Assembly: GCA_963971405.1 (NCBI GenBank)
Contig: OZ020490.1
Coordinates: 32,079,464 to 32,143,463 of the forward strand
Direction: 5' to 3'
DNA: 64,000 nucleotides
Source: Psococerastis gibbosa
Taxonomy: Eukaryota > Arthropoda > Insecta > Psocodea > Psocidae
The notes beneath the pieces are model-generated. The model saw nothing but the letters and a program-made list of their open reading frames with translations. It ran no database searches and was not told where the DNA came from. Below are positions 10,301 to 50,465 of the stretch, in pieces. The position numbers and the translations under genes were made by a program. The first letter of the stretch is position 1, and each line of letters opens with the position of its first letter.

Positions 10301-13300
10301 CATCTAATTAATTATTTTAATATTTTTTATAATATTTTTACTATGCCTGGACCTTATTTCGCTGCATATAATTTAAAATATATATTCTCCATGGTTTATA
10401 GAAAAATATCACTTTAAAATAATACGTAATTAAAAATAATTTTAAAATAGTATTGAGGCTTATGGAAAAATCAACGCTTTGATATCATTGCAACTGGTGC
10501 TGCCATCTACAAAATGACGCCACAAATGAACCCCCTACGCGTCGGCCAAGGCTGTAGCCAGAGGGGGGTCTAGGGGGTCCGGGCCCCTCCCGAAATATTT
10601 GCAGCGTACACTTGATAGAGGGCAGTTTTAAATATATTAAGGCTATCTTACCTCCAGTGGCGTCAGATAAACCCCTCCCGAAAAAAAAATCTGGCTACAG
10701 CCTTGACGTCGGCGCCTCTGCATGACTGGCCTTTTCCAAATTGTACGGATTTCCCGCTTGTAGAATGACATTTGCGCTTTACTACCTAACGTAGTATTCT
10801 TGTCCCAATAAATCTGCAGTTAAAGCTAAGAAAAATTTAAATTTGAAAAAGGCAGTAGATAAATTTAATTTTAATTTGGGAATGAACATGTTTATTGGGT
10901 ACCTATGTTATAGCTGGCAAATGTGATACTCGTATTTTTGTTGGAAATCCCAAACGATAAAAAATAACAACTGTATTATACATAGTTTATGGACTATTTT
11001 CTCGTAAATGATTAAATTCAATGATGTAACTTTCGATTAGTCCCTGCTTGATTATGTTTTTACAAAGCTCATCATAGCTTAAGGCAGGGTATCCAGTGGC
11101 GGAGCGTGCATGTAAGGCGTGCAATGCCGCATTACTCTCAAACAATCCTTAGAATGTATGCCGCTTCATTGAAATCTATAGGAAGCCGCGAGAAAATAAG
11201 ATGAGCATGATGTGATCGGCGCAGTCTAAGAAAATTAAAAATCTCGTTACGTTAGAATTAAAATTGTGTTTTTTTTTGGTTTTTACATTGTCAAGCATTA
11301 CACTTGCAATTATCCCACGCTCCGCCACTGAGGGTATCCCGTCTCCAGACTCAGTCACAACTAGTATTTTTATTCTTCATGTATTAATAATTTTTAGGAG
11401 CCTCTTGAGTCCATTTAATTTACGCCTGACAGTTTTAAGATGGCTTTATTATTTACATGTTAGTATAATATATAAGTTACGACCGAATCTAGGAAAGAAA
11501 GAAAGAATGTAAAGTAGTGGAACGGACTCTGACTTTCACTTTCACCCGAAAGGTTGTTGGTTCTAGTCCCACACTAGTTGCATTTTCTGGCCATGCTTCG
11601 GAGGACATGTAAAGCAAGGGGCGATTATCATGACAATATGTACCTTATGGAACCTGCTGTTCAGAAAAGGGAAGTCGTGCTCTTGCCAAACCACTGCCTC
11701 AGGTGTTTCAACCTGGATGTTCTTCTGCCGGGAGTCCTCTGCCCTTCTATCCTCACATGGATTATTACATGCAGAAGGCGATACTTTTCTTTCCTCAACA
11801 CATAACCGAAGTATGTTAGTTTCCGTTTCTTAACCGTCAGCAGCTACTCTACTTCTGTATCCATTCACCTCAGGACCTCAGCATTACGGACACGATGTTC
11901 GCTGCATTCGTCTGAATACCCACATTTTAAATGCACTGATTCTGTTCTCCGTAGCATGTATTAATAGTTATTTAATTAAATTGGTAAGCAAGTAATATTT
12001 TATTAGTATGGGCCTATATTTATTGTGTTATAGATCATATGACTCATATACGATAATATTGACTCATCATAAACAGATCATTAGCCTGTTTTCAGGCATG
12101 AATCATTCTTTCCAATAATCATTGCTTCGTATCGGACCGGTTTATTTGTTTGAGTACCAGCTAGACTGGACAACGAATGTCAACAACGCAGTCTTATGTA
12201 ACGTCATACATGCATGGCAATATGAGTCATAAGTCCCAGAAACAAGCAACAACGCATTGCGGATGGCTGCAAAAAGTGGATACATTCCAAGAAGGGCGAC
12301 GCCAGGATTTCAGCTGGGGGGGGAGGGGGCAGGAGGTAGGTCCCCACCCCCCTTTCAAAGTCATTTCGTAAAGAATGATTATAGCTTAGCATGTAATAGT
12401 AGAGCAGTAACAGGCTCATTGGGGGGGGGGGGGGGGGCAGCGGATGGTTTAGGAGCGGGCCCTTGATACATTCGGAGCTTCGCCATGACTCCATAAGATA
12501 ATGGGTTTCGAAAAGTGAAAAAGCACACGGTCATTGGAAGAAACACTGATGTGCTTATTGTTCGGCTTGGTTTGGCCGTTGACATATTTTAGGAGAGAAA
12601 AAAACACTCAAACTAAGATACGCATAAGAAACCCTAGACAAATACATAAATATGCATAAATTAAAAAAAAAAAATCAAAAAGCCATTAGTATCTATTGAA
12701 AAAATTAGAATTGAAAAATAATCAAAAGCCAACGACACGTGGTGTTCCCAAGCGGTCACCCATCCAAGTACTAACCACGCCCGATGTTGCTTAACTTCGG
12801 TGATCGGACGAGAACCGGTGTATTCAACATGGTATGGTCGTTGACATTAGTATCACACTATTGAAACTGCTTGAGTTAAACATTTAGAAAAGCACCTTTT
12901 GAAAAAAAATAGAATAGAAAAATAATCAAAAAGCCAACGACACGTGGTGTTCCCAAGCGGTCACCCATCCAAGTACTAACCACGCCCGATGTTGCTTAAC
13001 TTCGGTGATCGGACGAGAACCGGTGTGTTCAACATGGTATGGTCGTTGACATTAGTATCACACTATTGAAACTGCTTGAGTTAAACATTTAGAAAAGCAT
13101 CTTTTGAAAAAAAAATAGAGAATTGAAAAATAATCAAAAAGCCAACGACACGTGGTGTTCCCAAGCGGTCACCCATCCAAGTACTAACCACGCCCGATGT
13201 TGCTTAACTTCGGTGATCGGACGAGAACCGGTGTGTTCAACATGGTATGGTCGTTGACATTTAGCTGCACATGAACATTTCCACATGACTCGACTAGACG

Positions 13301-16300
13301 TACGAGTATTTTTGCTTCTTATCATCTTCATGTTTTCCTGATACAATTTTCTCTTGTTTGTGCGGCTACGGCAGTGGTGATTAGTTTTGTTGTTTATTTG
13401 TTGTGACAGGTGTAGTAAGTAAGTAGTTGTAGACAGGTATTGTCATCCGCCATATTGTATCCATTATAATTCTGGTGTATAAGCCAAGCATTGGGTGTTT
13501 ACCTATTTATTTTTAGAAATTTATCGTTGTTTATTTATTATTATTTAAAAAAACGTGCTACCAATTAGGGAAGTGTTTAATAAAAAACTACTAAAACATG
13601 TATTCGTTTTTTTCAATATTTTTAATTCGTTTACTTACAAGACTTACCATATAGGAAATATGGGATACAACATGGCGGATGACAATACCCGGGTATATAT
13701 ATATAGTGCCTTAGTAGTTAGTAATCTTATAGACTTCTATTCTAGTCTATGTATCTAGTCTTTCTTCTAGCCCAGGGGTTCCCAACCTTTTTTTGCCCGT
13801 GGACCACTAGATTATTTTATGATTTTCCGTGGACCACCATAGCTGCGACAGGAAAATCGTCAAATTCTATGATGATTTGTGCCTACAATTACATGCTAAT
13901 ATTTGTTTCAATGTTTAGGACTGGCATTTGGGTTTTATTGTTCAGTGCCAAGACCAGGCCCGTACCCAGGATTTTTTTTTTTTTTTGGGGGGGGGGCAAG
14001 AACAAAAAATTTTATAAATGATAGGTGCATCCTTATTGATTTTAGTAGTTTTAGCTAAAACTCTTACATTATTTTTTTTTATCAAAGTTATAGGGGGGGC
14101 ATGGCCCCCTTTGTCCCCCCCCCCCCTTGGGTACGGGCCAGGCCAAGACTTACTGCATTTTACTTCAAATTTCCAATATCTCAGCTGATAAATGCTGATA
14201 GCCACGCCATGTTAAAATGTCTGAGACCATATATCTTAGACCATATAATACATTATTTGTGTTGCGATGCCAACATGGCTGTGACGTCATCTGCTGGCAA
14301 AAGGTAAAAAACGCTTTTATATATAGGGCCACTTGAATACAATAAACTTTCTCTAGAACTTCGTGGCGCACCTACACGCAAAATATTTCAAAATAAGGTG
14401 AAACATGCAATACTACAAAAAGCACAGCACTTTGGAACTTCTAATAACATGCCTCTCTCAACATACCTCATACCATCTGTATACCAAATGGATCTGTACT
14501 TATACATATTACTACTTTAAATTTTTAGTTCTTATATTGTTATCGGCACCTTGCCTCCACGTGCAAAATGGCTGCACAATGGCAAGGGACCCAAAGAAGA
14601 AAAATGTATTATCTAAATTTATGTAACTGAATTTATTTTGGGAATTACACTATTATTATTATTATTATAAGCATAATGATTGGTCCCCCAACTTTTTGAT
14701 GCAGTGCAGAGTATTAAATGGTCTAAGGGTGCAGTAAATAGATAGGGGAAGTTGAGCAAAGGAATTTGAGCTGTTTAAGTTATTTCAATGAAACAATAGG
14801 CGTTCTAAAACCTAAGACACAATAACAATAAATAAATAAGTAAAACCCCAATATTTCAGGCTTCAGCCCTATTTTTCCCCCATCATATCCTCCGAACCCT
14901 CTGGCTCATGCGCAAAGGACACTAGTAGTAGTAGTAGTAGTGTTTGTCGGGTTAATAACGACTTAGGCCTCATATTTGGGCCCATAGAGCGACCCCGACT
15001 TGACAGTCCTATGCCACCCCATAGGACAGTGGACCCCCTGATTATAGTGGATTCCGAACCACTTGGGAAACACAATGAAGTCACTCGATTAGTTCGGAGG
15101 TAACCAGGACAAGTCCTACCATGTTTCCCTACCGGCACTGTGCACACGACCAAGTTATCTGCGGCTTTGAACCTGCTCTGGTCCACTAGATTCAACTTGG
15201 TATGGCGGCCGGCGGACACTAAGGTCATTGATGTAAAAGCTGCGTACGTCCGTGAGAACGGCTTTCCGCATTTTATACACTTTTATGAAAATGTGTGGAG
15301 GGGTGCCAAATTATACTCCGCCCCCTTCGAAAACCTGTCGTTATGCTACTGACAAGCGCCTCCCCCTTTCGTCAGCAGGTACCGCGTCTGGTGGTTTCAG
15401 TAATATCTGTACTGAGAAACATGAGAAAAACACCGGCTGCTTAGTTCCACATCATGTCCTCCACATACAAACATTGGTCTATGAGGTGCCTTTTTAGTTT
15501 ACTTCTAAAAGCTGTCATTTTTTGGATTTCAAATTTCAGGTGAAAATCGAGACTCTAGACTTTCACCACTACCTGCCTATCTTCTTCGAGGGGCTTACCG
15601 AAACGGTGAGTCCTTACAAGTTCTTGGCAGAGCAGGGAGTTCACGACCTCCTCACCCACGGTGGACACAAGGTTCTACCTGTAGTGCCGCAGCTTATTGT
15701 ACCAATCAAAAGTAAGATCCGAAAAATTCCACATAAATTCAGCATTTTGTGATAATAGGTAACATATTGTAACAATAAAATATTAAATATGGTTTATACC
15801 GTATAGTGTACTCTTTTGGGAAATTCCCCGGTGTAGAGGGTGAGTTCAGAGCGAGCCAATCAGGGCCCAGTATTCACTTACACAGTGTCCAGGTTTAAAT
15901 CTCCGTGCACAACCCCCTACCCAGTCACTCGCTAGTCTACGCAGCGCCGCTGAAGATGTCGACCGCAGCTGCTAGACGAAACGTTTGGAAGATCACTTTC
16001 ATATCGACGAAGGTCCATCAGCCCGGATTCAACTGGTTCTTCAAATGACTATGTACTGTGTAGAGTAGTGGTACGGACTCTGACTTTGAAAGGTTGTTGG
16101 TTCGAGTCCTACGCTTCCTAAATTTTCTGGCCATGCTTCGGAGCGCATGTAAAACAGGCGGTCCCGGGCTTTCCTAGTTGAGTGTAAGAGAGGGCTTTAT
16201 AGCCCTAACTCCGCTAGGTTGGGGTAGTAATAGAACAAAAAGTCCTTATTTATTTATGACTCTAGCCGTGAATGCCTTTGTAGATACATTATTTTTGATA

Positions 16301-18597
16301 TTTCTTCATATTTCCAGATGCCTTAAGCACAAAGCATCCCGCAGTGATGTGTACCATTTTGAAAGCCATCCAGCACCTTGTTTTGTCGACGGACATGGCT
16401 GGGGAGGCCCTGGTTCCATATTATAGGCAAATTTTGCCTATTTTCAACATGTTCTGCAATAAAAATAGTATGTGACATGCCAATAACATTGTTTGCTTAC
16501 AATTACAAATCTTCTTTCTTTCTTTTCCTTGTCCAGTATTCCCTGGACAAGGTACAAGGAGCATACATTACAAAAATACAATGCATAATAATACCATCCC
16601 GCATCCCCAAGCTAGCGCTTATTTGGGACAAAAGACTCATACAGTGCTGCTAAACAAGGCTTAATCATTTATTTTTGTTATTTATTTATAATGTTTATTT
16701 TATTTTTATTTTATTTTAACTTGTTATTTTAATGTCAGTTTTTATTATTATTATTAACTCCCATTGACCAGCCATCTTTTTATACCCGCTTTTAACTCAC
16801 ACATCTGTTTAAATTTTTTCATTTGTGGAGGAAGTTCATTAAATAATAATAATAATATTTTTTTTTTTTTCCTAACTGGTTACTCCACCAGCTAGGGGAT
16901 TATATTAATTCAAAATAAAAATAGACTAATTACCATTCACGACCACCCCAAAGCTTCCGCTTGTCGGGGGTGGCGTCTTCTTCACTAAATGTTGCAACTT
17001 TTTAAGGGTATTGTGGGTTCAATAGGTCTTGCCTATTGAGTCTCTAGCAACCATTTTTTTTAATAATAATATTATTATTATTATTAATAATTATAAGAAT
17101 AAAAATAATAATTTTTTTAATAATAATAGTTTATATTTGAGCCATCAACAGATCAGGTCCACAACGATGACATTAGCTTATAAAAGAAAATACAGTCTGC
17201 AGCCATCCTCCTACACTCAAGAAAGTTCATCCCAAACTCCAATTGCAACTGAGCTGTGCTAACAATTATAAATATATATATATATATTATATATAAAAAT
17301 TATATTTACAAAATGTTTGGACGGTTGGTTCGCTGGCCCCCTTGACCTTGGGACCCCCAGTTTCACCACTGTCGTATCATACCTTAGATTACCAATGCTT
17401 ATAGTTCTGTTAAACTGCGTATTAGGTCTACATAATAATTAATGAATTATTAAATTTTATGTTTGAGCCATGAGGAGCTGTCCTTGGAACGATTTGCTGC
17501 ATTTTCTAGCCATGCTTCGGAGGGCATGTAAAGCAGGCTGTCCCGGGCCTTACTAGTTCAGCGTAAGAGAGGGCTTTATAGCCCTAAATCCGCTAGGTTG
17601 GCTTAGTAATAGAACAAAAAGTCAATATTTATTTTATCTAGCAGCAGTGGCGGCTCGTGGAGTTAAGCCTGAGTGTTCAAAATGTTTTGTAAACAAGAAA
17701 TTATCGTACTTTTTGGACGAAATTAATTAATTGCTCCTTCTGCAGCCACAAAGATATAAAAGGGAACAGATGAAAAAATCTTAAAAAATACGAGCTTTCT
17801 CTGAAAGCTGTCTATTTCCCTTACAGATTTACAACTGTTCTACTAAATGGGTTTAAGGCTCTTTATCCAATTTTTTTAAAGGTAATAGTATTTCAGTTCA
17901 GAAAATATAAACTTCCTGCGATAACTTGGATTTTTTATGAGTTTTTTATCTGTTCACTTTGTTATCTTTGTATCTGTGGAATGAGCAATAAATTATTTCC
18001 GTCAAAAAATCAGCAAAATTTCTTGTTTACAAAACATTTTGAACTCTCAGCCTTAAATTTGGTTATTGGCTGACTGAGTTGAGTGCATCAAAACATTGAA
18101 AAAAAAATATTCACGACTTTTCAGTTAGCATTTGTGCCCGTCTTGAAGCAATAGATAAGCACCATGGATTGATTTAGTGCCTGAACAACGTTATTGTGAC
18201 TTGAACCTAGCAAATTTGTGGTGCAAGTTTGTGTTCAGAACTCTTTTTCGCGGGTTTGATTTTTCTTTTTTCTTTAATCCATTTAATTTTTAAATTAGAT
18301 GAGGCACTGACTCATTTGCCCACAATGGTGAGCCGCCACTTTCTAACAGGAACTTTCATTAAATTATTTCTGGCTCTTCCACATTCTGTTCTATTTTGTT
18401 TTTGTCCCTAGCTACCACAAAATATTTTTTTTCCAGAGAATTTATGGGATGGCATAGACTACAGTCAGCAACGCCGGGAAAACTTGGGAGACATGGTGCA
18501 AGAAACGCTGGAGCTTTTGGAGCGGTATGGAGGAGAAGACGCGTTTATAAATATCAAGTACATGGTACCTACCTATGAATCATGCATGCTAAACTAG
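7287..18597 (+). CDS. PACRG: PACRG, ciliary doublet-microtubule protein (5 coding exons)
   Basis: The coding exons are 7287-7338, 8410-8603, 15540-15711, 16318-16467 and 18437-18597. All introns are GT-AG, the phases join (1, 0, 1, 1), and the product is 242 aa. Recognisable family segments are [10 protein letters not shown] near residue 28, [13 protein letters not shown] near 55-67, [16 protein letters not shown] in exon 3, [16 protein letters not shown] in exon 4 and the C-terminus [17 protein letters not shown]. The last four-fifths is the ParcG domain. In other animals PACRG sits at the inner junction of ciliary doublet microtubules with CFAP20. Its length is close to other invertebrate PACRGs. 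The ATG was chosen because it opens a short exon with a GTGAGT donor of the right phase; the 5' UTR is unproven. Introns 2 and 4 are packed with repeats, and intron 2 holds three 5S rRNA genes on the other strand. I found no parkin gene upstream. The family identity is very secure; exon 1 is less so. Confidence 0.93.
7437..7590. mobile_element. Degraded MITE related to 44167-44355
   Basis: Left end GTGTATTCCACTTGTCAT, then a shared interior (AAGGAGACTATTA, TTAAGTTATAATA-x-GGTAGAGA, TTATTATTGATG). The right terminus is obscured by a C-tract. It sits in PACRG intron 1. The interior is shared with the better preserved 44167-44355 copy. Confidence 0.5.
7600..8409. other. PACRG intron 1, unassigned part
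   Basis: No recognised gene or intact element. The interval 7720-8160 is moderately GC-rich with no matching copy elsewhere in the window. Confidence 0.4.
8410..8603 (+). CDS. PACRG: PACRG coding exon 2
   Basis: Acceptor TCTTTTCAG at 8401-8409 and donor GTAAGG at 8604. It encodes the family's conserved lead-in ([12 protein letters not shown], then [13 protein letters not shown]) and ends with RWK at phase 0. A second AG at 8446-8447 would also be in frame, giving a shorter exon, but phase with exon 1 favours 8410. Confidence 0.9.
9359..9518. mobile_element. hAT-like G-tract MITE
   Basis: 160 bp with termini CAAGGCCGTAGCCAGG and CCTTGGCTACGGCCTTG. The flanks are GTCCTGAG (9351-9358) and TTCCTGAG (9519-9526), an 8-bp duplication with one change. 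A long G-tract lies just inside the left end, and a G-tract/CCCCCC pair just inside the right. It sits in PACRG intron 2. An 8-bp duplication points to the hAT superfamily (inference). Confidence 0.85.
9890..9973. mobile_element. Partial G-tract MITE, right end only
   Basis: A G-rich and C-rich stretch closes with CCTTGGGTACGGCCTTG, the right terminal repeat of the G-tract family. No matching left end is seen. Confidence 0.5.
10547..10705. mobile_element. hAT-like G-tract MITE
   Basis: Termini CAAGGCTGTAGCCAGAGG and TCTGGCTACAGCCTTG, 159 bp. Flanks are GCGTCGGC and ACGTCGGC (7 of 8). It contains a GGGGGTCCGGGCCCC internal palindrome. Confidence 0.85.
11094..11330. mobile_element. hAT-like MITE, perfect 8-bp duplication
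   Basis: 237 bp. Termini CAGTGGCGGAGCGTGC and ACGCTCCGCCACTG, flanked by AGGGTATC at 11086-11093 and 11331-11338. It lacks the G-tracts of its relatives, so it may show the ancestral end structure. Confidence 0.9.
11511..11630 (+). mobile_element. tRNA-derived SINE, 3'-truncated
   Basis: A-box-like GTAGTGGAACGGA at about 11513 and B-box-like GGTTCTAGTCC near 11561, then the shared body to about 11630. The downstream half of the body is missing. Confidence 0.65.
12288..12465. mobile_element. hAT-like G-tract MITE, perfect 8-bp duplication
   Basis: Starts CAAGAAGGGCGACGCCAGG and ends GGGCCCTTG, flanked by ATACATTC at 12280-12287 and 12466-12473. A long G-tract is at about 12420-12437. The right terminal repeat is short and diverged. 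Confidence 0.8.
12728..12845 (-). rRNA. 5S rRNA gene, tandem copy 1
   Basis: The minus strand opens with GTCAACGACCATACCATG and closes with ACGTGTCGTTGGC, 118 bp. It has the internal control region (AAGTTAAGCAACATCGGGC, then GGATGGGTGACCGCTTGGGA) of metazoan 5S. One base near the 5' end (GAATACACC) differs from the other three copies (GAACACACC). A short T4 run follows the gene, shorter than in the other copies. Confidence 0.95.
12933..13050 (-). rRNA. 5S rRNA gene, tandem copy 2
   Basis: Identical by eye to copies 3 and 4. It begins 205 bp from copy 1, with a conserved spacer (TTAGTATCACACTATTG). The gene is followed on its own strand by TTTTT, a Pol III terminator. Confidence 0.97.
13141..13258 (-). 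rRNA. 5S rRNA gene, tandem copy 3
   Basis: Intact 118-bp gene 208 bp from copy 2, with a TTTTT terminator. Its upstream spacer (beyond 13258) no longer matches the array, so this is the array edge. It lies in PACRG intron 2 on the opposite strand. Confidence 0.97.
13432..13694. mobile_element. Terminal-inverted-repeat MITE (GACAGGTATTG family)
   Basis: Ends GACAGGTATTGTCATCCGCC and GGCGGATGACAATACCCGGG. An inverted second copy lies at 52132-52385, sharing the interior AAATTTAT-x-GTTGTTTAT and AAAACGT-x-CTACCAATTAG. About 260 bp, no ORF. The target duplication is unclear. Confidence 0.75.
13773..14180. mobile_element. hAT MITE (CAGGGGTTCCCAA family), right-truncated and interrupted
   Basis: Starts CAGGGGTTCCCAACC and follows the complete copy 46025-46322 (inverted) until about 14180, where similarity stops and no right end is found. 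A second MITE (13955-14141) is inserted at GCCAAGAC. Confidence 0.8.
13955..14141. mobile_element. G-tract MITE inserted in hAT MITE at GCCAAGAC
   Basis: 187 bp. Ends CAGGCCCGTACCCAGG and CTTGGGTACGGGCCAG. Flanked by the perfect 8-bp duplication GCCAAGAC (13947-13954, 14142-14149), confirmed by the empty site in the 46025 copy, which reads GTGCCAAGACTTAACTG. T-tract and G-tract inside the left end, C-tract inside the right. Confidence 0.9.
14922..15213 (-). mobile_element. 5S-headed SINE, (CTA)n-tail subfamily
   Basis: On the minus strand it begins GCCGGCCGCCATACCAAGTT, resembling the 5' end of 5S rRNA, and ends in a (CTA)n tail (GTAGTAGTAG on the + strand at 14926). The middle contains GTGGTTCGGAATCCACTATA as in the (CAA)n subfamily. 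A second copy is at 26046-26290. Confidence 0.7.
15540..15711 (+). CDS. PACRG: PACRG coding exon 3
   Basis: Acceptor AAATTTCAG and donor GTAAGA. It encodes [19 protein letters not shown] through [11 protein letters not shown], the most conserved part of the ParcG domain. Confidence 0.95.
15950..16290 (+). mobile_element. SINE-like repeat K, interrupted by a tRNA-SINE
   Basis: Runs from CGCAGCGCCGCTGAAGATG through GACGAAACGTTTGGAAG and CCCGGATTCAACTGGTTCTT. It is split at 16050 by the SINE at 16051-16255 and resumes with ACTCTAGCCGTGAATGCCTT. The same order occurs uninterrupted at 62618-62740. Confidence 0.7.
16051..16255 (+). mobile_element. tRNA-derived SINE, best preserved copy
   Basis: A-box-like TAGAGTAGTGG at 16061-16071 and a perfect B box GGTTCGAGTCC at 16099-16109 give a tRNA-type Pol III promoter. 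The body (GTAAGAGAGGGCTTTATAGC) and an A/T-rich tail follow. Flanked by ATGACT at 16045-16050 and 16256-16261, inside repeat K. Confidence 0.8.
16318..16467 (+). CDS. PACRG: PACRG coding exon 4
   Basis: Acceptor ATTTCCAG and donor GTATGT. It encodes [20 protein letters not shown] through [12 protein letters not shown], with split codons at both edges that join exons 3 and 5. Confidence 0.95.
16505..16840 (-). mobile_element. LINE 3' end (same family as 32668-33375)
   Basis: On the minus strand it encodes the terminal peptide [12 protein letters not shown] through LVNGS and stop, then a 3' UTR ending in an AAGAAAG-rich tail. It matches the + strand at 33050-33375. A severely 5'-truncated copy inside PACRG intron 4. 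Confidence 0.75.
16841..17300. repeat. AT-rich microsatellite-rich interval
   Basis: Contains (TAA/TTA)n at 17055-17095 and (TA)n at 17268-17292, with T-tracts at 16859. No gene signal. PACRG intron 4. Confidence 0.7.
17491..17632 (+). mobile_element. tRNA-derived SINE body, head missing
   Basis: Shares TTTTCTAGCCATGCTTCGG to the A/T-rich tail with the 16051 copy. The Pol III boxes are absent. It is immediately followed by the target site of the hAT MITE at 17645. Confidence 0.7.
17645..18341. mobile_element. hAT-like non-autonomous element, 697 bp
   Basis: Ends CAGTGGCGGCTCGTGG and GAGCCGCCACTT, flanked by TCTAGCAG and TCTAACAG (7 of 8). Long sub-terminal inverted arms (TTCAAAATGTTTTGTAAACA near 17677 and its inverse near 18025). 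No transposase ORF. The right edge lies 95 bp before PACRG exon 5. Confidence 0.85.
18437..18597 (+). CDS. PACRG: PACRG terminal coding exon
   Basis: Acceptor after a T-tract (TTTTTCCAG). It encodes [19 protein letters not shown] through YESCMLN and the stop TAG. A canonical AATAAA was not seen in the next 300 bases; AT-rich variants near 18765 are possible poly(A) signals. Confidence 0.95.
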
Positions 18598-18944
18598 CTT
18601 AATTCAAAAATTGATACACGTAATTTTAAATACAACATGATTCACGATTTGTTATGTTTCCCTCTATTCCTCAAATGCAACTCTTATTCATATAATTATT
18701 TACTTAATTACAGGCCACGTTGTGACTGGTATCTTATAAAAATATAGTGTCATTGGCTATTGTACTCAATATAAATTATACATTAATTATATATTATATT
18801 GCATTGTGTTAAATATAATTATTCATTCATAGCTTGTAGAGCCACAGTTCTTCTTATGGGTAATCGGGACTTGCAGGAACTTGCAGTCCGACCAGTTTCA
18901 ATTAGGCCTATATCTTTCCAATTTACAGGTCTATATGTAGAGTA

Positions 18945-19905
18945 AGGAAAGCTTTGTGATGGTCAAAATTTTCGATTCCGAGATTTCAACGGATTTACAC
19001 GACTTGAGGTTCCAGGAGCCCAAAAAGTGGCTTTTACTGCCACAGGCGTCTTTGCATCGATTTTCGGACAAAGAACCGGTCCGAGTTTACTCGAACATGC
19101 TTTCCAATTTATCAAAATTAGTAGATAGAGAAAATGAGTAATTTCATGGTAAATAATTTTCCTACGGTTAAATTTCGGATATCTCGGGGGGGGGGGGGGG
19201 GGGGTTGTCCACCTGACGTCACTGGAGGTGAGGTAAATTCTAGATAGGACAGACACATTACCACACAGCAATACTGGCAAGGCACGCAATGCATTTGAGC
19301 GTGAATTTTCTATAATTTTTTCAAAAAAACATTTTTTTTTACAAAACCATATGTTTTTCAGGGAAAGCAATCTGTCCGGTTTCGTTACTCAATTTAACAC
19401 CTAAAACATGCCTGAAGGTAGAAATCATCGATAGAAAGGTTTCGCAGAAAAATTATTTTTTAGTCATTTTTCATTAAAATTTAGTTATTTTTATTTTTTT
19501 ACCCCCAGAAGCAACCTATCAAGGGGCAAGCGACCCCCCGCATTTCGTTAACATTAATAACGACTACAATATATGTGAATTGAAAAGAAATCGTTGGAGC
19601 CGTTTTTGAGAAATAATTTTTTAGACGTTTTTTTGGAGTTTTTTGAGAATAAAACCCCCCAAATTAAGTTAGCCCCAAATAAAAAAATTCTTCCGAGGTA
19701 TGATTTTTGTGAACCTACATGCCGAATTTCATCAAAATCGACCGAGTAGTTTGCCCGGAAATCGACGCACAGACAGACAGAACGACAGACAGACAGACAT
19801 TTCTAAAAAACCACTTTTTTGGGTTCCTGTGACCTTAAAACGTGTAAATCCGTTGAAATCTCGGAATCGAAAATTTCGACCGTCACAAAGCTTTCCTTAT
19901 ACTAC
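18945..19905. mobile_element. R780 repeat, copy C, with about 110-bp terminal inverted arms
   Basis: The left arm (AAGGAAAGCTTTGTGATGG) and right arm (CCGTCACAAAGCTTTCCTTA) are inverted copies. Between them lies the full R780 body starting at CCGGTCCGAGTTTACTCG (19078). This is the only copy with both arms. It contains a G-tract at 19181-19204 and a (CAGA)n tract near 19770-19797. No coding. Confidence 0.7.
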
Positions 19906-20579
19906 GTATAAATTGGAAAGCAACTAGTAAACTACTCAGTGGATTTGTCTAAAATTGGGCATGTTGGTTCACAAAAATCATACCTAGACCTAGAAACCTA
20001 TTTTATTTCCATTTTGGGCCAACTGAATTTGGGGGGGGGGGGGTTACCCTCGAAAAACTAAAAAAAAAAGTCTAAAAAAAATATTTCTCAAGAACAGCTC
20101 CAAAGATTTCTTTTAGCCTCACATACAGAAGGAGTCTTCACAGTGTTGGTGTTATCGAGTTATACTTAGGTAGTTAAGTGTGTTATGTCTAGCTAAGCTA
20201 ACACACCGGTAACCAGCTAACCAGCGTATTATCCTAAACCCACTTCCAAGTTGGTTAACGTGTTCTTTAACTTGCTATAGCTCAGGTTTGACCGCCGCCA
20301 TAGTTGTTTTTGTCGATTGATGTGAAACACGCGTTCAAAATTTTGTTTTATTTAAATTTATTTGTATAATATATTATCACAAGCAATTACCGTAAGTACT
20401 TAAAATTATAATAACCAAAATGAACAAAAAATATAAACAAATGTGGCACTAGAATAGAGTTCTGCCACTTTCTTTACACCCACGAACGTCTGACTACTAC
20501 CAACACGTTGCTTACTCTGTCGATATAGCATGATAACTCACTCCCGAGCCCCCGAGGTCCACTCACGATTGTGTGTTAA

Positions 20580-20963
20580 GGCGCCCATTCCATTGACCGG
20601 CTAGGGCTATTTCCAACAACGGTGACGTGGTAGCAGACATTCAAGACTTAGGTTACGTTTCCACCGACCTCGCATTGCAGATTGCAAATGACATTGACGG
20701 AAATGTTTGTTTTTCTTTTAATAGAAATCTATTAAAATGTTTGTAATTAATATATCCCAGGAAGCCATTTTTTAATTTTAGTTTGTTTCTTTGTGATTTT
20801 ACTGTATGGTCATTGATCAATTTTAACTATGGCATAGAGGAAAATAAACATTTCCGTCAATTCTGCAATGCGAGGTCGGTGGAGACGCCACCTAAGTCTT
20901 GAATGTCTGCTACCACGTCACCGTTTTTGAAAATAGCCCTAGCCGGTCAATGGAATGGGCACC
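20580..20963. mobile_element. Tourist-like fold-back with TAA duplication
   Basis: Termini GGCGCCCATTCCATTGACC and GGTCAATGGAATGGGCACC, flanked by TAA at 20577-20579 and 20964-20966. Arms are about 70 bp, including ACGTGGTAGCAGACATTCAA and its inverse. Another fold-back (20651-20892) sits inside. Confidence 0.8.
20651..20892. mobile_element. Innermost fold-back of the 20-21 kb nest
   Basis: Arms TTTCCACCGACCTCGCATTG and CAATGCGAGGTCGGTGGAGA. Interior shared with 1933-2189 (AATGACATTGACGGAAATG). Confidence 0.7.
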
Positions 20964-21282
20964 TAACTAGAATAGCACATCTAACTCGATAACACGAACA
21001 CTGTGAAGACCCTAGTATATTGTAGTCGTTATTAATGTAAACAAAACGCAGTAGGTCACTTGACCATTGACAGTTTGGTTCGGGAGGTTAAAAAATAGAA
21101 AAGACCCAATTATCATGAAAAATGACTAAAGAAATGTTTTTCTGTGGAACCTTTCTATCGAAGCTTTCTAACTTCAGGTATGTTTTAGTTGTTAAGAAGT
21201 AGCAAAACCGAACATGTTGCTTTCCCAAGCAAGGATTTCATTTTGTACAAAACATTATTTTTGAAGAAAATAATGTGTTGTA

Positions 21283-21460
21283 CAATGGCGGATCCGGGGG
21301 GGGGGGGGGGGGTTAGAGGGTTTTCAAGCCAATTCATAAGATATACCTAGTAAAAAAAATTTGAATAAGACTCAACTTTTCAACAAACAAAAATTACCTT
21401 AACTTACAAGCAACTTGTGACCCCCCCCCCCCCCTAAAATTTCCGCTGGATCCGCCCTTA
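21283..21460. mobile_element. G-tract MITE, perfect 8-bp duplication
   Basis: Ends CAATGGCGGATCCGG and GGATCCGCCCTTA, flanked by GTGTTGTA at 21275-21282 and 21461-21468. A long G-tract inside the left end, a long C-tract inside the right. A sister copy is at 50707-50903. Confidence 0.88.
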
Positions 21461-21520
21461 GTGTTGTAATGCATTGGTCTGCCCATTTTAGACCATGGAA
21501 TCGTCTCGTCGACAAATGCA

Positions 21521-22506
21521 GTGCTTTGGGATAGGATAAACTCCATAACCCCGAAGGTAAAGTTGAAATTTAAAAAAAGTACATACAACTCCTGCAAATA
21601 TTTGTATCTGCTTTTTTGATAACATGGCCGTTGGTAAAACTGCATACGTGGCTTAATGCAGGCGAATGCACCTGTGACTCAAAATAGTAAAGATGGACCG
21701 CAACATTGACTCATCCATAGTAGCGCCGTCAACTTAGAGTTTCCACAACACGAGAGAGTTTGCAATTAGTAGGTAAAGTGTGTCCAAAATAATTTGAAGG
21801 CCCTCCAAAATTATTTCCAAGGACAGCTAGTCAAAGCCATATTGGAAAATTTATAGATGACGTTAAATTTCGGGAGTTTTCATATTTTGTTGGATTTTAT
21901 ACCAAAATTGTATAATGTTAGGAGGTCTCTCAAAATGCTATTTTACGGATTTTTTCCATCCTCGCAGAATTGCCAACAATGCTGGCTAAAGTGACCACTC
22001 CGACGCCGAAATTATACCTTAAATGATTAGGAGGTAATGTAAATAGGAGGTCGACTGAATTGTCGTGAATACCACGGTCCTCTCGTTTAACAGCTTGGAT
22101 GCGAAACGTTGTATGTCGCGATCGGTATGACCTTGCTTTTTAACTGGCCGGCTGCTTTGTCCGTGTATGCTTTCGTAATGGATATTTTTAGTTTTAAAAC
22201 TTTACAACTTAGAGAGCATTTTTAAAATGTTTCCCTATTTGTTTTCAATAATTTCAATAGGTATTCATATTTCCCTCTCCGCTCTACAACCCCATATCCA
22301 TGTAGGCCTATCATAATACTATTGTACTATTCTTAATAGGTTGCTGGCCATAACGTATCGTCCTAGAGCATGAAGATAAAGTTAGCTGTTTGTATAATAC
22401 ACGAACGACGCTTATGCATATATGTATTTTTCTAGGGGAAAGATCGTGTTTTTCTCTAGAACGAAAAAGCAGAATATATTTCCTCATTTCGTTGCTTCCC
22501 TAGCAA
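21521..22506. other. Noncoding interval
   Basis: No gene or complete element recognised. The first 30 bases resemble the CCCAAAGCACTGAAT-type block of 2390. Confidence 0.4.
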
Positions 22507-22518
22507 GCTGGACAATAT

Positions 22519-22890
22519 GTTGTTGTTTCCAACGCCTGCTTTCAGCATTTCTGCTTTAAGCAACCCTGTCAGCCTGGTGGGGGGAGTGAGTCTGTTTTTT
22601 AACTTGAGGCACCCTAAGGGCAGACTCTTTCACCTCGGGGAAGGGGGAGTTGACTAACAGGGTGGACCTCCTGATTATAGTGGATTCGGAACCACTTGGG
22701 GAACATGGTAAAGTCACACGATTAAATTGGAGGGGACCAGGACTCGACTTATACTGCCTAAGCGAGTTATCTTGTCCCACCAGGTTCCCCTGCCAACGCT
22801 GTGCACACTACCAAGTTGCCGCAGTTTGAAACATGCTCTTCTCTAATGGAATCAAGTTGATTATCAATATGGTAAGGCCGTTGGCCTATC
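22519..22890 (-). mobile_element. 5S-headed SINE, (CAA)n-tail subfamily
   Basis: On the minus strand it starts AACGGCCTTACCAT (5S-like) and ends in a CAACAACA-type tail. Flanked by GCTGGACAATAT (22507-22518) and GCTGGACAAATAT (22891-22903), a target duplication of about 12 bp, as expected for LINE-mobilised SINEs. Confidence 0.8.
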
Positions 22891-22903
22891 GCTGGACAAA
22901 TAT

Positions 22904-23962
22904 TCCCCAGCATACTTTCAAAAATTTGTGTGCAATCAATTTCGTCAAAATGGCTCAGCCGTCCGTTATTTACAAGTTATATTGAAATATCTGCTTTAAA
23001 ACTCCATATTCGCCTAAAAATTGACACACCCTCCCAAAGCGGGTTCCTAAGAGTCTTATTCTTTATTGTATTACATTTCCATCAATTCCTAATTTTAAAT
23101 TATAACATAATAGACACATAGGAAGATTCGTGGGAATGGGAATGCGTTGAAATAATTTGAAAGAAAGAAAGAAAAAAAATTGTCTTAATTTTAATATTGC
23201 ACCAGTTTTGACTTAGGGTCCTCAGGCCCAATCTGAAAAATCACAATTAACCTTTAATTAAAAATTAATTAAAATTAATAAATCGAAACCAATTCTATAA
23301 CTTAACTCAAAACTAGAAAGCATGCTGGATCCATCCGTACGAAAAATCAATAACAGCAGGTGATTATGTATATAGAGGACAATTTACAATAATACATGTA
23401 ATACACATATTTCAGAGATTCTGCTTTGAACCGTAATCCTGCTTTTTGTAATATCGTAGGATCTTGTTTCGGGCTTCGGTTATGGTCACCAAATCGAACA
23501 ACAATTTAAGGCACTTAAAATAAAAGACAAACAATGCAATAGGGCATCGATGGAATGAAACTAAAGATGTTAAAATAGAAAACACCAATGCTATTGCAGT
23601 ATACTGTTATAAATGAATAATAATAGGGCGCCATTAAATAAATACCCATCAAATTCTACAAGACATTTTAGACAAAAGATAGTTTGATTTAAGTGTTCGT
23701 TCGGTTGAGACTTTTGAAGTTGAACATTTGAAATGCATTTTTAAATCATAATATAAATTAAAGAGATGCCAGGCAGCATAGCTCCTAGTATTTGAATAAA
23801 TAAATAAATAAATTGACTATCTAGCTACCTATGTAGGTATATTATGATTAATAATAATCACTTTAAAGTATATAAACACTATATTAGCTGAAACCATGGA
23901 GCTAATAAAGATAAAGTTGAACTATCTCTATGGCTGAAACGCCTACACAAAACAAATAAACC
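22904..23962. other. Noncoding interval, AT-rich
   Basis: An (AAAG)n tract at 23159-23178. Otherwise no recognised gene, RNA or element. Confidence 0.4.
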
Positions 23963-24600
23963 ATTCCTAGCTCCGCTTACTGGTACAAACGTTTAAAACC
24001 TAAGAACCATACCCATCCTATATACTTCTTCTTCTTCTTCTTCTGGCTCTACAGCCCTTGATGAGCTTTGGCCTGCTCAACAACACTCCTCCAGTCATCT
24101 CGCTTTTCTACAACTCTCCACCATCTACGGACTTCCAACTCACGAAGGTCACTTCCCAACTCATCCTTCCAGAGTTTTTATACCTATTTAACTAAAACGT
24201 TCAAAAAGCACAAACTGCAATATACAAGCACCCATCCGAGTGACTAAATCATTGATTTGGGCTAATAAAACACCTGCAGTAATGAATGATATATATAACT
24301 GATTTGAAAAATTCCCAGCTCCGCTACTGGTGTAAGCGTTAAAAAGTTAACACATGTCCCCATCCAACTAAAACATGTAAAAAGCACAAACTGCAACATA
24401 CAAGCACCCATAGGAATGACTCACATCTCAATCATATGAGCTGATGCTAATAAAACACTATTAAAACACCTGCGGTAATGATAAGACGAATTCCCGGCTC
24501 CGCTACTGGCGCGTTAAAAACTTAACACGTGTGCCCAGGAACTTGCACGTGCAAAAAGCTTTAAGCTACAACAAGCTACATACAACAAGCTCCCACAGAA
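23963..24600. repeat. Tandem repeat of about 180 bp, three units
   Basis: Units start with ATTCC-x-GCTCCGCT-x-ACTGG at 23963, 24311 and 24490. They share GCACAAACTGCAA-x-ATACAAGCACCCAT and CTAATAAAACAC. The first unit is lengthened by a LINE fragment at 24020-24183. Confidence 0.65.
24020..24183 (-). pseudogene. LINE ORF2 C-terminal fragment with (GAA)n tail
   Basis: Same family as 6180-6355: the minus strand matches the KDEL-x-DLRELEVR-type terminal peptide and the AKAHQGL end, then a (GAA)n tail (CTTCTTCTTC at 24025). It sits inside the first tandem unit. Confidence 0.65.
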
Positions 24601-25074
24601 GCGGCTGGCCATATGGGACACGCGTAATACGCACGTGCACATCTGTTTGAAAACGCCGGGACCCCTCAATGACATTTTGAAGGCCGCACGTCAATCTGAA
24701 GGAAGAATGGCAGACTACACACAGCTTTTGTATTAGGACAGCATGAGACTAGGAGGTGTGCATATCACAGGCTGGCAATGAATGCAGATGGTTCTTGTTT
24801 AAAACAGGTTATCTCCATTTGGTAAAACATAGGCCAGGTGTGTTGAAGGTGAGCCAGTTGGGCTTTTCAACGTTGAGTGTTAGGCCTATTACATTTTTAA
24901 TTATGCGGTACAGCGGTAGGCTTGTATTAATGCTTTTGTGCTTTACTCTATGGTCTGAATGCATGGGCTTCCTATCCGACCGATGGCACTTGGAACACTT
25001 ATAAAAATAAAATAAACTCGGTGTTCCGCTTATGCAAGTTTTCGAATAAACAAAGTGTTCCAAGTGCCGGGTAA
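24601..25074. other. Noncoding interval
   Basis: No supported gene. 25000-25060 resembles 56810-56885 (TAAACTCGGTGT followed by AAGTTTTCGAATA), a short shared repeat. Confidence 0.4.
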
Positions 25075-25082
25075 TACATGGA

Positions 25083-25246
25083 CCTGGCCGTGCCCAGGGG
25101 GGTAGTCCATGGGGTCCGGACCCCCCCCCCCAAATAAATTTTGTATGTAAACCTGTATGGTTTGAAGAATTTATCCATTAATAAATTACCTAACAAAAAA
25201 TTTGGACCCCCCCCCCCCCCGAAATCGAAACCTGGGCACGGCCTTG
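25083..25246. mobile_element. G-tract MITE, perfect 8-bp duplication TACATGGA
   Basis: Ends CCTGGCCGTGCCCAGG and CCTGGGCACGGCCTTG, flanked by TACATGGA at 25075-25082 and 25247-25254. Contains GGGGTCCGGACCCC. A sister copy at 56158-56331 shares the interior. Confidence 0.9.
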
Positions 25247-25269
25247 TACATGGAACAAGCTTTTAGCAA

Positions 25270-25578
25270 GGCGGAAATTCCACCGGCGAATTTACTTCAT
25301 TTGTGATTTGATATTTTTTGTTTGTTTTGTTTTAAGGAGACTATTATGTACAGTGGCGTAGCCAGATTTTTTTTTTTTTTGGGGGGGGGGTCCAGTTTTC
25401 ATAAAGTTTGCCCGCTTACGTTAGGTTTTCGAATGGGGTGGTGTTTCATTTGGATAAATATCTAAAAAAAATTGCTATTTTGCTTTAAAAAAATTTTTGG
25501 GGGTCCGGACCCCGCTGACAAAACAAAATAAAAATCTCAAATCACAAATGAAGTAAATTCGCCGGTGGAATAGCCGCC
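25270..25578. mobile_element. Tourist-like fold-back with an inserted CAGTGGCGTAG element
   Basis: Ends GGCGGAAATTCCACCGGCG and CGCCGGTGGAATAGCCGCC, with arms of about 58 bp, flanked by CAA and TAA. From 25351 it contains CAGTGGCGTAGCCAG, a T-tract, a G-tract and the palindrome GGGTCCGGACCC, a one-ended copy of the element at 41556. Confidence 0.75.
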
Positions 25579-25774
25579 TAAGTCTATACTATATGCCATT
25601 TAATAGTATCTTATGCTGTGTAATCCTGTGGTTAACTATGTAAGCAATATAGATTTTTAGAATGCAAAATGTTTTCTTAAACTGTTTTGTTTACATTTTT
25701 CACCGCTTATTATGTTATAATTAAGCGGCATAGTAGGTATTACAATTTAGTGAACATAGTAACAGTAGTAGACG

Positions 25775-25925
25775 CAGTAGCTCGAGGATGACCGTGTGAC
25801 TGGGTAGTCGCCACTAATTAAGCAACCACTCTTTTGTCCTGCTGGGGTTGGGCGGTGGAACTCAATGAAGAGTCAACGGCATAAGGGTGCGGAATAAGGC
25901 AACGGGAATCCGCTGCATTACAATT
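25775..25925 (+). repeat. Interspersed repeat Q
   Basis: The GAGTCAACGGCATAAGG and TTTTGTCCTGCTGGGGTTGG blocks recur inverted at 42465-42640 and, in part, at 60000-60075. No coding evidence. Confidence 0.6.
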
Positions 25926-26045
25926 CCCTACAGCAGGGGTTCCCAAACATTTTGTCCGTGGACCACTAGATTATTTTATGATTTTCCGGGGACCACCATG
26001 ACTCTGACAGGAAACTCGTTAAATTCTAGGACTCAATTGAAGTAG

Positions 26046-26290
26046 TAGTAGTAGTATGGTTGGACACAGTCCCAGGCCACGGTGTGGGCCCATAGGACAG
26101 GGGACCTCCTGATTATAGTGGATTCCGAACCACTTGGGAAACACTGTGAAGTCACACGATTAGTTCGGAGGTGACCAGGACAAGTCCTACCATGTTTCCC
26201 TACCGGCACTGTGCACACTACCAATTTATCTGTATCTTTGAACCTGCTCTGGTCCGCTGGATTCAACTTGATAAGGTGGCCGGCTTACTA
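26046..26290 (-). mobile_element. 5S-headed SINE, (CTA)n-tail subfamily
   Basis: Flanked by AATTGAAGTAG at 26035-26045 and 26291-26301. Same tail and body as 14922-15213. It interrupts the hAT MITE. Confidence 0.8.
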
Positions 26291-26381
26291 AATTGAAGTA
26301 GTTTGAGCCCAAAATTACTTGCTATTTGACTGAATGTTTAAGACTGGTACCGGTTGGATTTTACATAGTTCGTGCCAAGAC

Positions 26382-26568
26382 CAAAGGCGGATTTTGGGGG
26401 GGGGGGGTCAGGGGGTCTGGACCCCCATAAAATTAAATGAACTTACACTAGATAATATGGGTTTACAGTGGGAATTAAAAATAATAATGTTTTTTAATGT
26501 TATAATCCACAGAATCTGCCCGCTGACCCCCCCCCCCTCCCCTACATTGGAGGCAAAATCCGCCCTTG
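26382..26568. mobile_element. G-tract MITE inserted at the same GCCAAGAC target
   Basis: 187 bp. Ends CAAAGGCGGATTTT and AAAATCCGCCCTTG. Flanked by GCCAAGAC at 26374-26381 and 26569-26576. The interior (AATAATAATG-type, CCGCTGACCCC) matches 49394-49550 inverted and is unlike the element at 13955. Confidence 0.9.
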
Positions 26569-26975
26569 GCCAAGACTTATTACTGTATTTTAGTTCATAT
26601 TTCCAATAACTCAGCTGTTTTATTTTCTTATTCCTTACTTTGGCCTGTGAACCACCTGATTTATGTTTGTGGACCACAGTTTGGGAAACCCTGCCCTATA
26701 GTACAGTCATCATGACTAAGTATACAATCAATACACTCCACATACTTGATTTCCTTTTGGGGAGTCCGAAGTACGGTATCAACGTATGTTTACAATTGCC
26801 ATGATGATCGCCAATCTTATAGATAGAAGAGATATTTGCAGAAGAATACACTTTCGCTTCTATGCGGGGAAATTTTGGAGCCCATAATACAGCTTTCAAC
26901 TGTCCACCATTTACGGCGGCTGGTTACTAAATTGTCCTACCGGCGGTTTTGTGGAAGTCCATGTAATCGTCTAAC

Positions 26976-31975: not shown

Positions 31976-32395
31976 GATTATAATCCCGGGGTTTGTTTAA
32001 TACCATGTCACGTGATGGGATTAATTCAATAGTTTAAAATAAAAAAAGACAAGCAAATTTCAGATTTTTGTAATTTTTTATGTTGTCGCAGTGCTATAAG
32101 TGCGGAAATTTCAAATTTAAACAATTGAATTATCTTCAGATATATTTTGGTGAGTTTCTTCATTTTTTCTGCCTTAGATTTAGACAAATAATTTATAATA
32201 TTTCCTTAATTTATTAATAAAAAATATTAAAACTTGTTTATTTCTAGGGCGATGTGTATATTTAATATATTATTTTATTTTAATTTAAAAATTCTGAAAT
32301 TTGCTTTTCATTTACTTTAAACAATTCAATTAATCCCATCACGTGACATGGAATTTAATTAACCCCGGTATTATAATCGCCATGGTTGCTGAAAT
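31960..32395. mobile_element. Second fold-back of the same family, abutting the first
   Basis: Ends AGCAGCCTGATCATGGTGAT and GCCATGGTTGCTG. Arms carry TACCATGTCACGTGATGGGA and the inverse CCCATCACGTGACATGG. Related to 36355-36875. Confidence 0.7.
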
Positions 32396-36354: not shown

Positions 36355-36875
36355 TTAATATAATACCATGTCACCTTTTCACGTGATGGTATTAATTCAA
36401 TTGTTTAAAATAAATGAACAGTAAATTTCAGAATTTTTTAATGTTTGATGTTGGTTATCGTCGCAAGAGTGCTAAGCGCGGAAAATTCAAATTGTGTCTA
36501 TTAAAACGATTGTTATATATTTTTTTAGATTTGGACAAATTCCTCACTTATAATCCTTAATACAATATATTAATTCAAAATTAAAACTTGTTTATTTATA
36601 GGGCGAGATGTGTTTATACTTGCTATTTATATTTGCTATGGCACGTCCAATATTAATTTATTACGCTCTGATTTAATCGATCCTACACATGTTTTTCCTA
36701 TTTTGACCCACCACTACCCCCCCCCCCCCCCCAATGGGCTGGACCCGTCCCTGGCAAGTGGCAGCGTTCGCGTCAGTTAAGTTCTTCAGTATTGCCAGCA
36801 TCACAGTTAAAAAAATTTTTAAATTAAGACCATCACGTGACATGGTATTATAATAATTAACCCCGGTATTGCAGC
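36355..36875. mobile_element. Fold-back with an inserted G-tract MITE fragment
   Basis: Arms TACCATGTCACCTTTTCACG (36365) and ATCACGTGACATGGTATTA (36831). Interrupted at about 36657-36755 by an inverted, one-ended copy of the 29637 MITE (C-tract, then GGCTGGACCCGTCCCTG). Confidence 0.65.
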
Positions 36876-37088
36876 AAATCATCATAAACTCCTACAGTTT
36901 ATGCGCTATGCAGCTCAGTCCTGCGTCCATAAAATTCATTCGCGAAATTCTCAATAATAGTTTGAAATCTTTCTAGGTTTCATCATGTACACAAACACAG
37001 TTCAGTACACAGTACTGCGGGCCTGCTATGGCAATTATTTCTAATCTCAACCTGGGATTAAAAATGTAAACAAAACTATTTTCAATAT

Positions 37089-37447
37089 TTTGTTGTTGTT
37101 TCCAACGCCTACTTTCAGCATTTCTGCTTTAAGCAACCCTGTCAGCCTAGCGGGGGGAGTGAGTCTGTTTGTTAACTTGAGGCACCCTAAGGGCAGACTC
37201 TTTCACCTCGGGGAAGGGGGAGTTGTTAACTAACAGGGTGGACTTCCTGATTATAAAGGATTCCGAACCACTTGGGGAACATGGTAAAGTCACACGATTA
37301 AATCGGTGGTGACCATCAGGACTCGACTTATACTGCGTAAGCGAGTTATAATGTCCCACCAGGTTCCCCTGCCAACGCTGTGCACACTACCAAGTTGCCA
37401 CAGTTTGAAACATGCTCTGCTCTAATGGAATCAACATGGTAAGGCCA
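37089..37447 (-). mobile_element. 5S-headed SINE, (CAA)n subfamily, 12-bp duplication
   Basis: Flanked by TATTTTCAATAT at 37077-37088 and 37448-37459. The minus strand starts GGCCTTACCATGTTGATTCC and ends in CAACAACAAA. It interrupts a TGCGGGC-family MITE (37014 onward, resuming at 37460). Confidence 0.9.
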
Positions 37448-46024: not shown

Positions 46025-46322
46025 CAGGGGTTCCAAACTGTGGTCCACAGACATATATCAGTTGGTCCACGGAGCAAAGTGAGAAATAAGAAAATAAAAC
46101 AGCTGAGTCAGTGGAAATTTGAAGTATAAAATACAGTTAAGTCTTGGCACTGAACTACAAAATCTAACCGATATCAGTCCCAAACATTTAATCAAATATT
46201 AGCACGTAGGCTAATTGTAGGTACAAACTACTTGATCTTAGTCCTATAGAATTTTTGCAGTCATGGTGGTCCACGGAAAATCATAAATTAATCTAGTGGT
46301 CCAAAAAGGTTGGGAACCCCTG
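46025..46322. mobile_element. Complete hAT MITE (CAGGGGTTCC family), uninterrupted
   Basis: 298 bp. Ends CAGGGGTTCCAAACTG and GGTTGGGAACCCCTG, flanked by CTCTAAAA and CTGTAAAA (7 of 8). It gives the empty-site sequence for the insertions at 13955 and 26382. Confidence 0.92.
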
Positions 46323-50035: not shown

Positions 50036-50112
50036 TTGTGCCTCGGTGGCACTGTAGAGAGTTACATTAGCGAGTTACATTGCAGTTACATTGACCCGAA
50101 ACTGTATGTTAT

Positions 50113-50465
50113 TTTGTTTTCCAACGCCAGCTTCTTGGATTTCTGCTTTAAGCAACCCAACCAGTCTGTTTCTTAACTTGAGACACCCTAAGGACAGACT
50201 CATTCACTTCAGAATGAAGGGGAGTTGACTGACAGGGTGGACCTCCTGATTATAGTGGATTCCGAGCCACATAGGGAACGTAGTAAAGTCACACGATTAA
50301 TTCGGAGGTGACCAGGACTCGACACACATGTAGACTGACTGGTATAGCCTCAACGCATTATCATGACCCACCATGTTCTCCTGCCAACGCTGTGACACAC
50401 CATAAGTCTGCTACAGTTTTGAACAGGCTCTATTCTGGTGGATTCAACTTGGTATGGCCGTTGGC
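50113..50465 (-). mobile_element. 5S-headed SINE, (CAA)n subfamily
   Basis: The minus strand starts GCCAACGGCCATACCAAGTT, the copy most like the 5S 5' end. The tail is eroded to AAAACAAAAT. Confidence 0.75.

Follow-up and report, generated by a model that had tools for sequence, protein, structure and literature searches.

Four distinct short, non-autonomous G/C-tract hAT-like elements appear to have inserted separately across the same eight bases, GCCAAGAC, at consensus positions 193–200 of an abundant hAT MITE of Psococerastis gibbosa, each in a separate copy of it and each duplicating the 8 bp of the target. We consider it reasonably probable that related hAT transposases insert at this place as a weak local hot spot. 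Such transposases would have made the insertions, and the site may be favored through the shape of the local DNA or the sequence beside it, not through a strong 8-bp motif. From one further copy (L120) an element has probably been excised, with two altered 8-bp copies remaining. At face value, the enrichment over other host positions is more than ten-fold, and our best reading is that the site is filled in roughly 1% of host copies or fewer. Against a hot spot stands the fact that a mere 12.4 kb separates two of the four cases, both inside the window (the whole 64,000-nucleotide stretch analyzed here) that prompted the question.

A broader reading, in which this internal MITE stretch is a landing pad for several related hAT transposases and perhaps for other insertion machines, with some losses, seems doubtful to us; if it were true, MITE copies across the genome would gather different elements at one base pair. 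Hundreds of similar MITE copies form a natural target library in which each insertion can be placed to the base by comparison with copies that lack it, so that the choice of targets by hAT elements in a living genome becomes measurable without an experiment. Such a library can separate chance, common hot spots and real MITE preference as causes of nested MITEs.

Two inserts and one empty target in the window

The sequence-only reading had placed two different inserts at an identical 8-bp target, and the letters, when re-read, bear this out: both hosts are split between perfect copies of GCCAAGAC. This 8-mer occurs five times in total in the window (both strands scanned), as a pair bracketing each of two 187-bp inserts and as a single target, reading GTCTTGGC at 46141, in a third host copy that has no insert there. 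The features are as follows, the target copies being placed by the 8-mer scan.

13773–14187, plus strand: host hAT MITE copy 1, left part 13773–13954 and right part 14142–14187 (consensus 1–200 and 193–238)
13947–13954, plus strand: left target duplication GCCAAGAC of insert 1
13955–14141, no strand assigned: insert 1, 187-bp hAT-type MITE, ends read inwards CAGGCCCGTACCC / CTGGCCCGTACCC
14142–14149, plus strand: right target duplication GCCAAGAC of insert 1
25934–26693, plus strand: host hAT MITE copy 2 with both ends, insert 2 and a retroposon-like insert
26047–26290, no strand assigned: 244-bp SINE-like insert within host copy 2, related to other window repeats
26374–26381, plus strand: left target duplication GCCAAGAC of insert 2
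26382–26568, no strand assigned: insert 2, 187-bp hAT-type MITE, ends CAAAGGCGGATTTT / CAAGGGCGGATTTT
26569–26576, plus strand: right target duplication GCCAAGAC of insert 2
46025–46322, minus strand: host hAT MITE copy 3, target uninterrupted
46141–46148, minus strand: empty target GCCAAGAC of host copy 3

For both window inserts, the duplication is exactly 8 bp long, the bases beside each repeat pair being different. The terminal inverted repeats begin with CA in both, with one difference between CAGGCCCGTACCC and CTGGCCCGTACCC in insert 1 and 13 of 14 positions matching in insert 2. Taken with two further inserts described below (L055 and L068), the 8-bp duplications (exact around both window inserts and in L068, 7 of 8 in L055) and the short inverted repeats starting with CA, imperfect in L055 and L068, suggest that all are hAT-type MITEs. 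Two inserts would share one position with a chance of about 1/306 if insertion were uniform, for a pair chosen post hoc in a very repeat-rich window. The reversed window was uninformative as a control for the duplication scan, because mirror images retain direct and inverted repeats.

The host family was defined by searching the 409-Mb genome (68 contigs), where scoring the best 40 of 1,701 first-look candidates gave 41 matches; the resulting consensus of 314 positions rests on 28 rows, 27 of them distinct, with one short match (L010) left out. The target at consensus 193–200 is thus internal, and the earlier description of it as sub-terminal was wrong. Host copy 1 can be traced to 14187 (consensus 238), and its 3′ part was not found. 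Host copy 2 has its own flanking duplication (CCCTACAG / CCCTATAG), and its SINE-like insert is bounded by a 12-bp duplication, AATTGAAGTAGT, at 26035–26046 and 26291–26302; this insert matches part of a roughly 350-bp repeat that the window contains at least seven times (22516–22859, 37086–37446, 50102–50464, 52799–53154, 53628–54001, 54827–55172 and 60792–61154). Judged by eye, the targets of the host MITE itself carry TA at their middle in 25 of 27 distinct copies (positions 4–5 of the 8-bp left flank). A single-strand fold of the host consensus beats its shuffles (z −3.7, with 0 of 100 as good), and the folding gave no trustworthy special place for position 193. The search of viral contigs and phages returned no match.

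Further filled sites in the genome

Site-directed searches, together with the window, brought the hAT-like inserts to four and added a single footprint, a retroposon-like insert and an unclear one. A strict two-sided pattern with an insert of 153–213 bp matched two places in the genome, both in the window (reversed control 0). The right-junction pattern matched 19 places (reversed control 9), and the 17 outside the window, all fetched, comprised three host copies (one filled, two empty with an extra G) and 14 sequences unconvincing as hosts. L055 carries a 144-bp hAT-like insert at the target, between GCCTAGAC and GCCAAGAC. L064 and L066 were rejected as filled sites, being empty hosts with one extra G ahead of GCCAAGAC; this G sits at the exact left target edge (CACTGGCCAAGAC / CAGTGGCCAAGAC) and could be a subfamily variant that they have in common or a small scar.

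With one mismatch allowed, the left-junction pattern matched 40 places (reversed control 1), including window copy 1 and L055. Fetching 15 of the other 38 gave one filled host (L068), one host with another insert (L082), one empty host (L081) and 12 non-hosts; the 23 unfetched places finish with CT or TA where the junction falls, and we took them for empty copies in which one base has changed. The insert of L068 is hAT-like, 123 bp long and flanked by a perfect GCCAAGAC on both sides, and that of L082 is a 336-bp sequence behind GCCAAGAC that has no clear ends or duplication. Ten left-junction places (L069–L078) share TTTCAGTGCCAAGACCA and were set aside as an unrelated near-identical repeat rather than host.

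The right-junction pattern with one mismatch matched 58 places (reversed control 8). Among the 20 fetched were 11 empty hosts, seven sequences unconvincing as hosts, L120 and L113, and the 38 unfetched comprise 11 that were already known and 27 with ATGCC or TTGCC, which we read as empty hosts with a changed base. L113, together with L123 (C2:37968289-37969854), has a retroposon-like insert of about 765 bp at the target that starts with poly-T and lies between GGGCCAAAA and GGGCCAAGA, which match at 8 of 9 positions. Excision of hAT elements leaves altered tandem copies of the target duplication. The host copy L120 has GCCAAGAGTCCAAGAC at the target, an excision-type footprint, and is the single match to a footprint pattern searched across the genome (reversed control 0). 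Exact matches to the empty-site 16-mer GTGCCAAGACTTACTG number 396 in the genome (reversed control 0).

Two host copies are broken in other ways. At L048:4700-5068, the host starts at about consensus 190, beside the target, behind G/C-tract sequence, and its left half was not found within 10 kb of sequence around the locus. At L050:4842-5969, the host is broken by an element of roughly 900 bp with GGAAAGC near both ends, whose stretch GCTTTGTGATGGTCGAAAT is similar to one end of the window element 18948–19894.

Weighing a proposed local hot spot against its alternatives

How special the position is was gauged by a matched assay with 9+9-bp anchors, in which the target spans 16 admissible positions and a control, the right part of the host, spans 89. 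The target pattern matched three places (reversed control 1), namely the filled hosts L055 and L068, which share one position, and a third that, by its letters as listed, reads as non-host; 350 places were empty. The window's own two cases do not match this pattern. For the control there were 19 rows from 17 loci (reversed control 1) and 323 empty rows, a few of which are double counts; two of the 17 loci were hosts with an insert, five were not (one ambiguous) and ten were unread, which leaves the control rate uncertain six-fold. For any one position, 352 copies should accordingly hold between 0.024 (two control inserts) and 0.159 (13) inserts, and the probability of at least two at the target position is 0.0003 with two control inserts and 0.011 with 13, ten of the 17 control loci being unread. 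The window pair had already singled out the position when L055 and L068 came to light; the anchors and the length range were set after both were known, and the length ranges differ slightly (about 112–172 bp for the control and 121–181 bp for the target). At the level of whole segments, two filled sites per 352 × 16 copy-positions at the target do not differ significantly from the control (Fisher 0.13 to 0.73). A second estimate came from 23 host copies in 198 kb (20 loci picked for an intact site plus three copies therein), of which three carry an insert elsewhere (L035, L046 and L050), hAT-like in one case (L046); scaled to 396 copies, the expectation at one position is 0.056 for hAT-like inserts and 0.169 for any insert.

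These numbers bear on coincidence, the alternative that in a MITE-packed genome with many nested pairs some will share a position by chance, and that the window was reported for holding one. The very high repeat density, the post hoc choice of the pair, the inserts elsewhere in three of 23 sampled copies and the absence of a significant segment-level difference all speak for it. However, once the exact position had been named, a further two hAT-like inserts turned up there, as did a footprint, against an expected count of 0.02 to 0.17, and we regard coincidence as unlikely, if still a serious contender. The hot spot put forward in the sequence-only reading has moderate support: the new inserts and the footprint exceed the rate per position of a control in which ten of 17 loci are unread, but the segment-level excess is not significant. 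Its suggestion that MITEs would dock repeatedly into other MITEs also needs tempering, since docking recurs but is rare, with 396 exact sites empty and two filled against 350 empty in the assay. Alternatively, the place might draw inserts or breaks of any kind rather than hAT elements specifically, as the poly-T insert of L123/L113, the 336-bp insert of L082 and the host start near consensus 190 in L048 could suggest; these cases, however, come from searches aimed at the target junction or from the sample, and we judge this account very unlikely.

A transposase specific for GCCAAGAC or a close motif would explain why identical 8 bp were used four times, and strong site preference was indeed the earlier proposal, but the family of insert 2 does not bear it out. 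From 1,723 first-look genome candidates, 40 relatives of insert 2 were scored and 20 read, with ends picked by a best-fit script; 17 of the 20 have 8-bp duplications (seven or eight of eight matching) and three were dropped. The 17 targets are all different, and none of the 20 relatives read (of 40 scored) sits at the host target. Their symmetrised target matrix is weak, no position carrying more than about 0.2 bit, and places the host target 39 of 306 with 8 bp, 175 of 300 with 14 bp and 106 of 290 with 24 bp, so that a matrix-based explanation of the site choice fails. Exact-duplication hAT-like elements in a 262-kb sample also use other targets, and the 396 exact 16-mer sites are empty. Strong site specificity in insert 2's family thus appears very unlikely from the targets compared, and a site-specific transposase as the cause of the whole pattern is highly improbable. 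Least credible of all is a single ancestral insertion that was carried to other places by the host MITE or by gene conversion, to diverge or be replaced later, even though the junctions are identical and two cases lie so close together. The four inserts are unlike in length (187, 187, 144 and 123 bp) and in their inward ends, which read CAGGCCCG/CTGGCCCG in insert 1, CAAAGGCGG/CAAGGGCGG in insert 2, CAGGGAGACC/CAAGAGCAAC in L055 and CAGGAAGGAT/CGTGGACGGA in L068, the last two forming poor inverted repeats. No BLAST match among them is longer than 39 bp, and most of the matches lie in homopolymer tracts; between the two window inserts, whose interiors had been called unrelated with good reason, the common stretches are G/C- or A/T-rich tracts within that length. 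Their hosts are mutually 82.9–90.0% identical and split into two deletion types (window copy 1 with L055, window copy 2 with L068), and in the window self-comparison no homology is listed for the sequences outside the two window hosts. Because the inserts have only short tract-like matches and the hosts are no more alike than this, independence of the insertions seems near certain from these comparisons, in agreement with the earlier view that one shared ancestral insertion was unlikely. Exact composites whose insert measures 153–213 bp number just two in the genome, and an amplified composite family was rejected for this exact pattern on the same count.

Comparison with known systems and other window features

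Hot spots for hAT insertion are already known, and in light of the parts of the reports available to us the weak local hot spot proposed here is a further case. Tol2, a hAT element, inserts preferentially at hot spots of a target plasmid (PMC4818426), and in the available part of that report it is like the present case in its 8-bp duplications and repeatedly hit positions; we also count as a likeness that its consensus is weak and AT-rich, yet positions recur. That work concerned one element and one plasmid in vitro, whereas here several natural MITE kinds lie in genomic MITE copies. For the carrot Stowaway element DcSto, the portion available describes two different MITEs in one position (PMC3695323), with nesting, clustering and a short deletion at the position, interpreted as a likely excision scar, as further likenesses; DcSto, however, is a Stowaway element with a TA target, seen as variants of one locus across plants, and ours are paralogous MITE copies. 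In the open-licence literature, to the extent available, we came across no account of a MITE family in which different hAT MITEs recur at a single position.

Target motifs with 8-bp duplications have been described for hobo and Hermes (PMC3276498, PMC10368747; excerpts). Against the hobo motif GTNCGNAC as given in the excerpt (PMC3276498), GCCAAGAC agrees at three of six specified positions (1, 7 and 8), and against nTnnnnAn, also in these excerpts (PMC3276498, PMC10368747), it has the A but lacks the T at position 2. Unlike hobo and Hermes as these excerpts present them (PMC3276498, PMC10368747), our inserts are known from MITE sequences alone. An AAGT on the minus strand adjoins the target, and a sub-terminal AAGT motif of Hermes is taken as a BED-domain site in the part of the report at hand (PMC10368747); any meaning of this resemblance, at one site, would be speculation. 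The host MITE itself, with its TA-centered targets, is like the Drosophila Buster-type hAT MITE Mar, for which the available part of the report describes targets of the nnnTAnnn kind as for other Buster-type elements (PMC3517528); Mar differs in sequence and organism from the host, which is known from MITE copies alone.

The window holds several other features. At 12699–13261, three 5S rRNA genes follow one another in tandem every 205 bp, and a fourth 5S rRNA copy lies 45 kb from them at 58107–58225 on the minus strand. The related elements at 32008–32346 and 36379–36840 are each bounded by the palindrome TCACGTGA, which, being its own reverse complement, probably belongs to the inverted repeat of the elements rather than being a common target duplication. 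Finally, reverse-transcriptase fragments (Pfam RVT_1) are found at 47104–48859 on the minus strand, the shorter one scoring below the curated cut-off.
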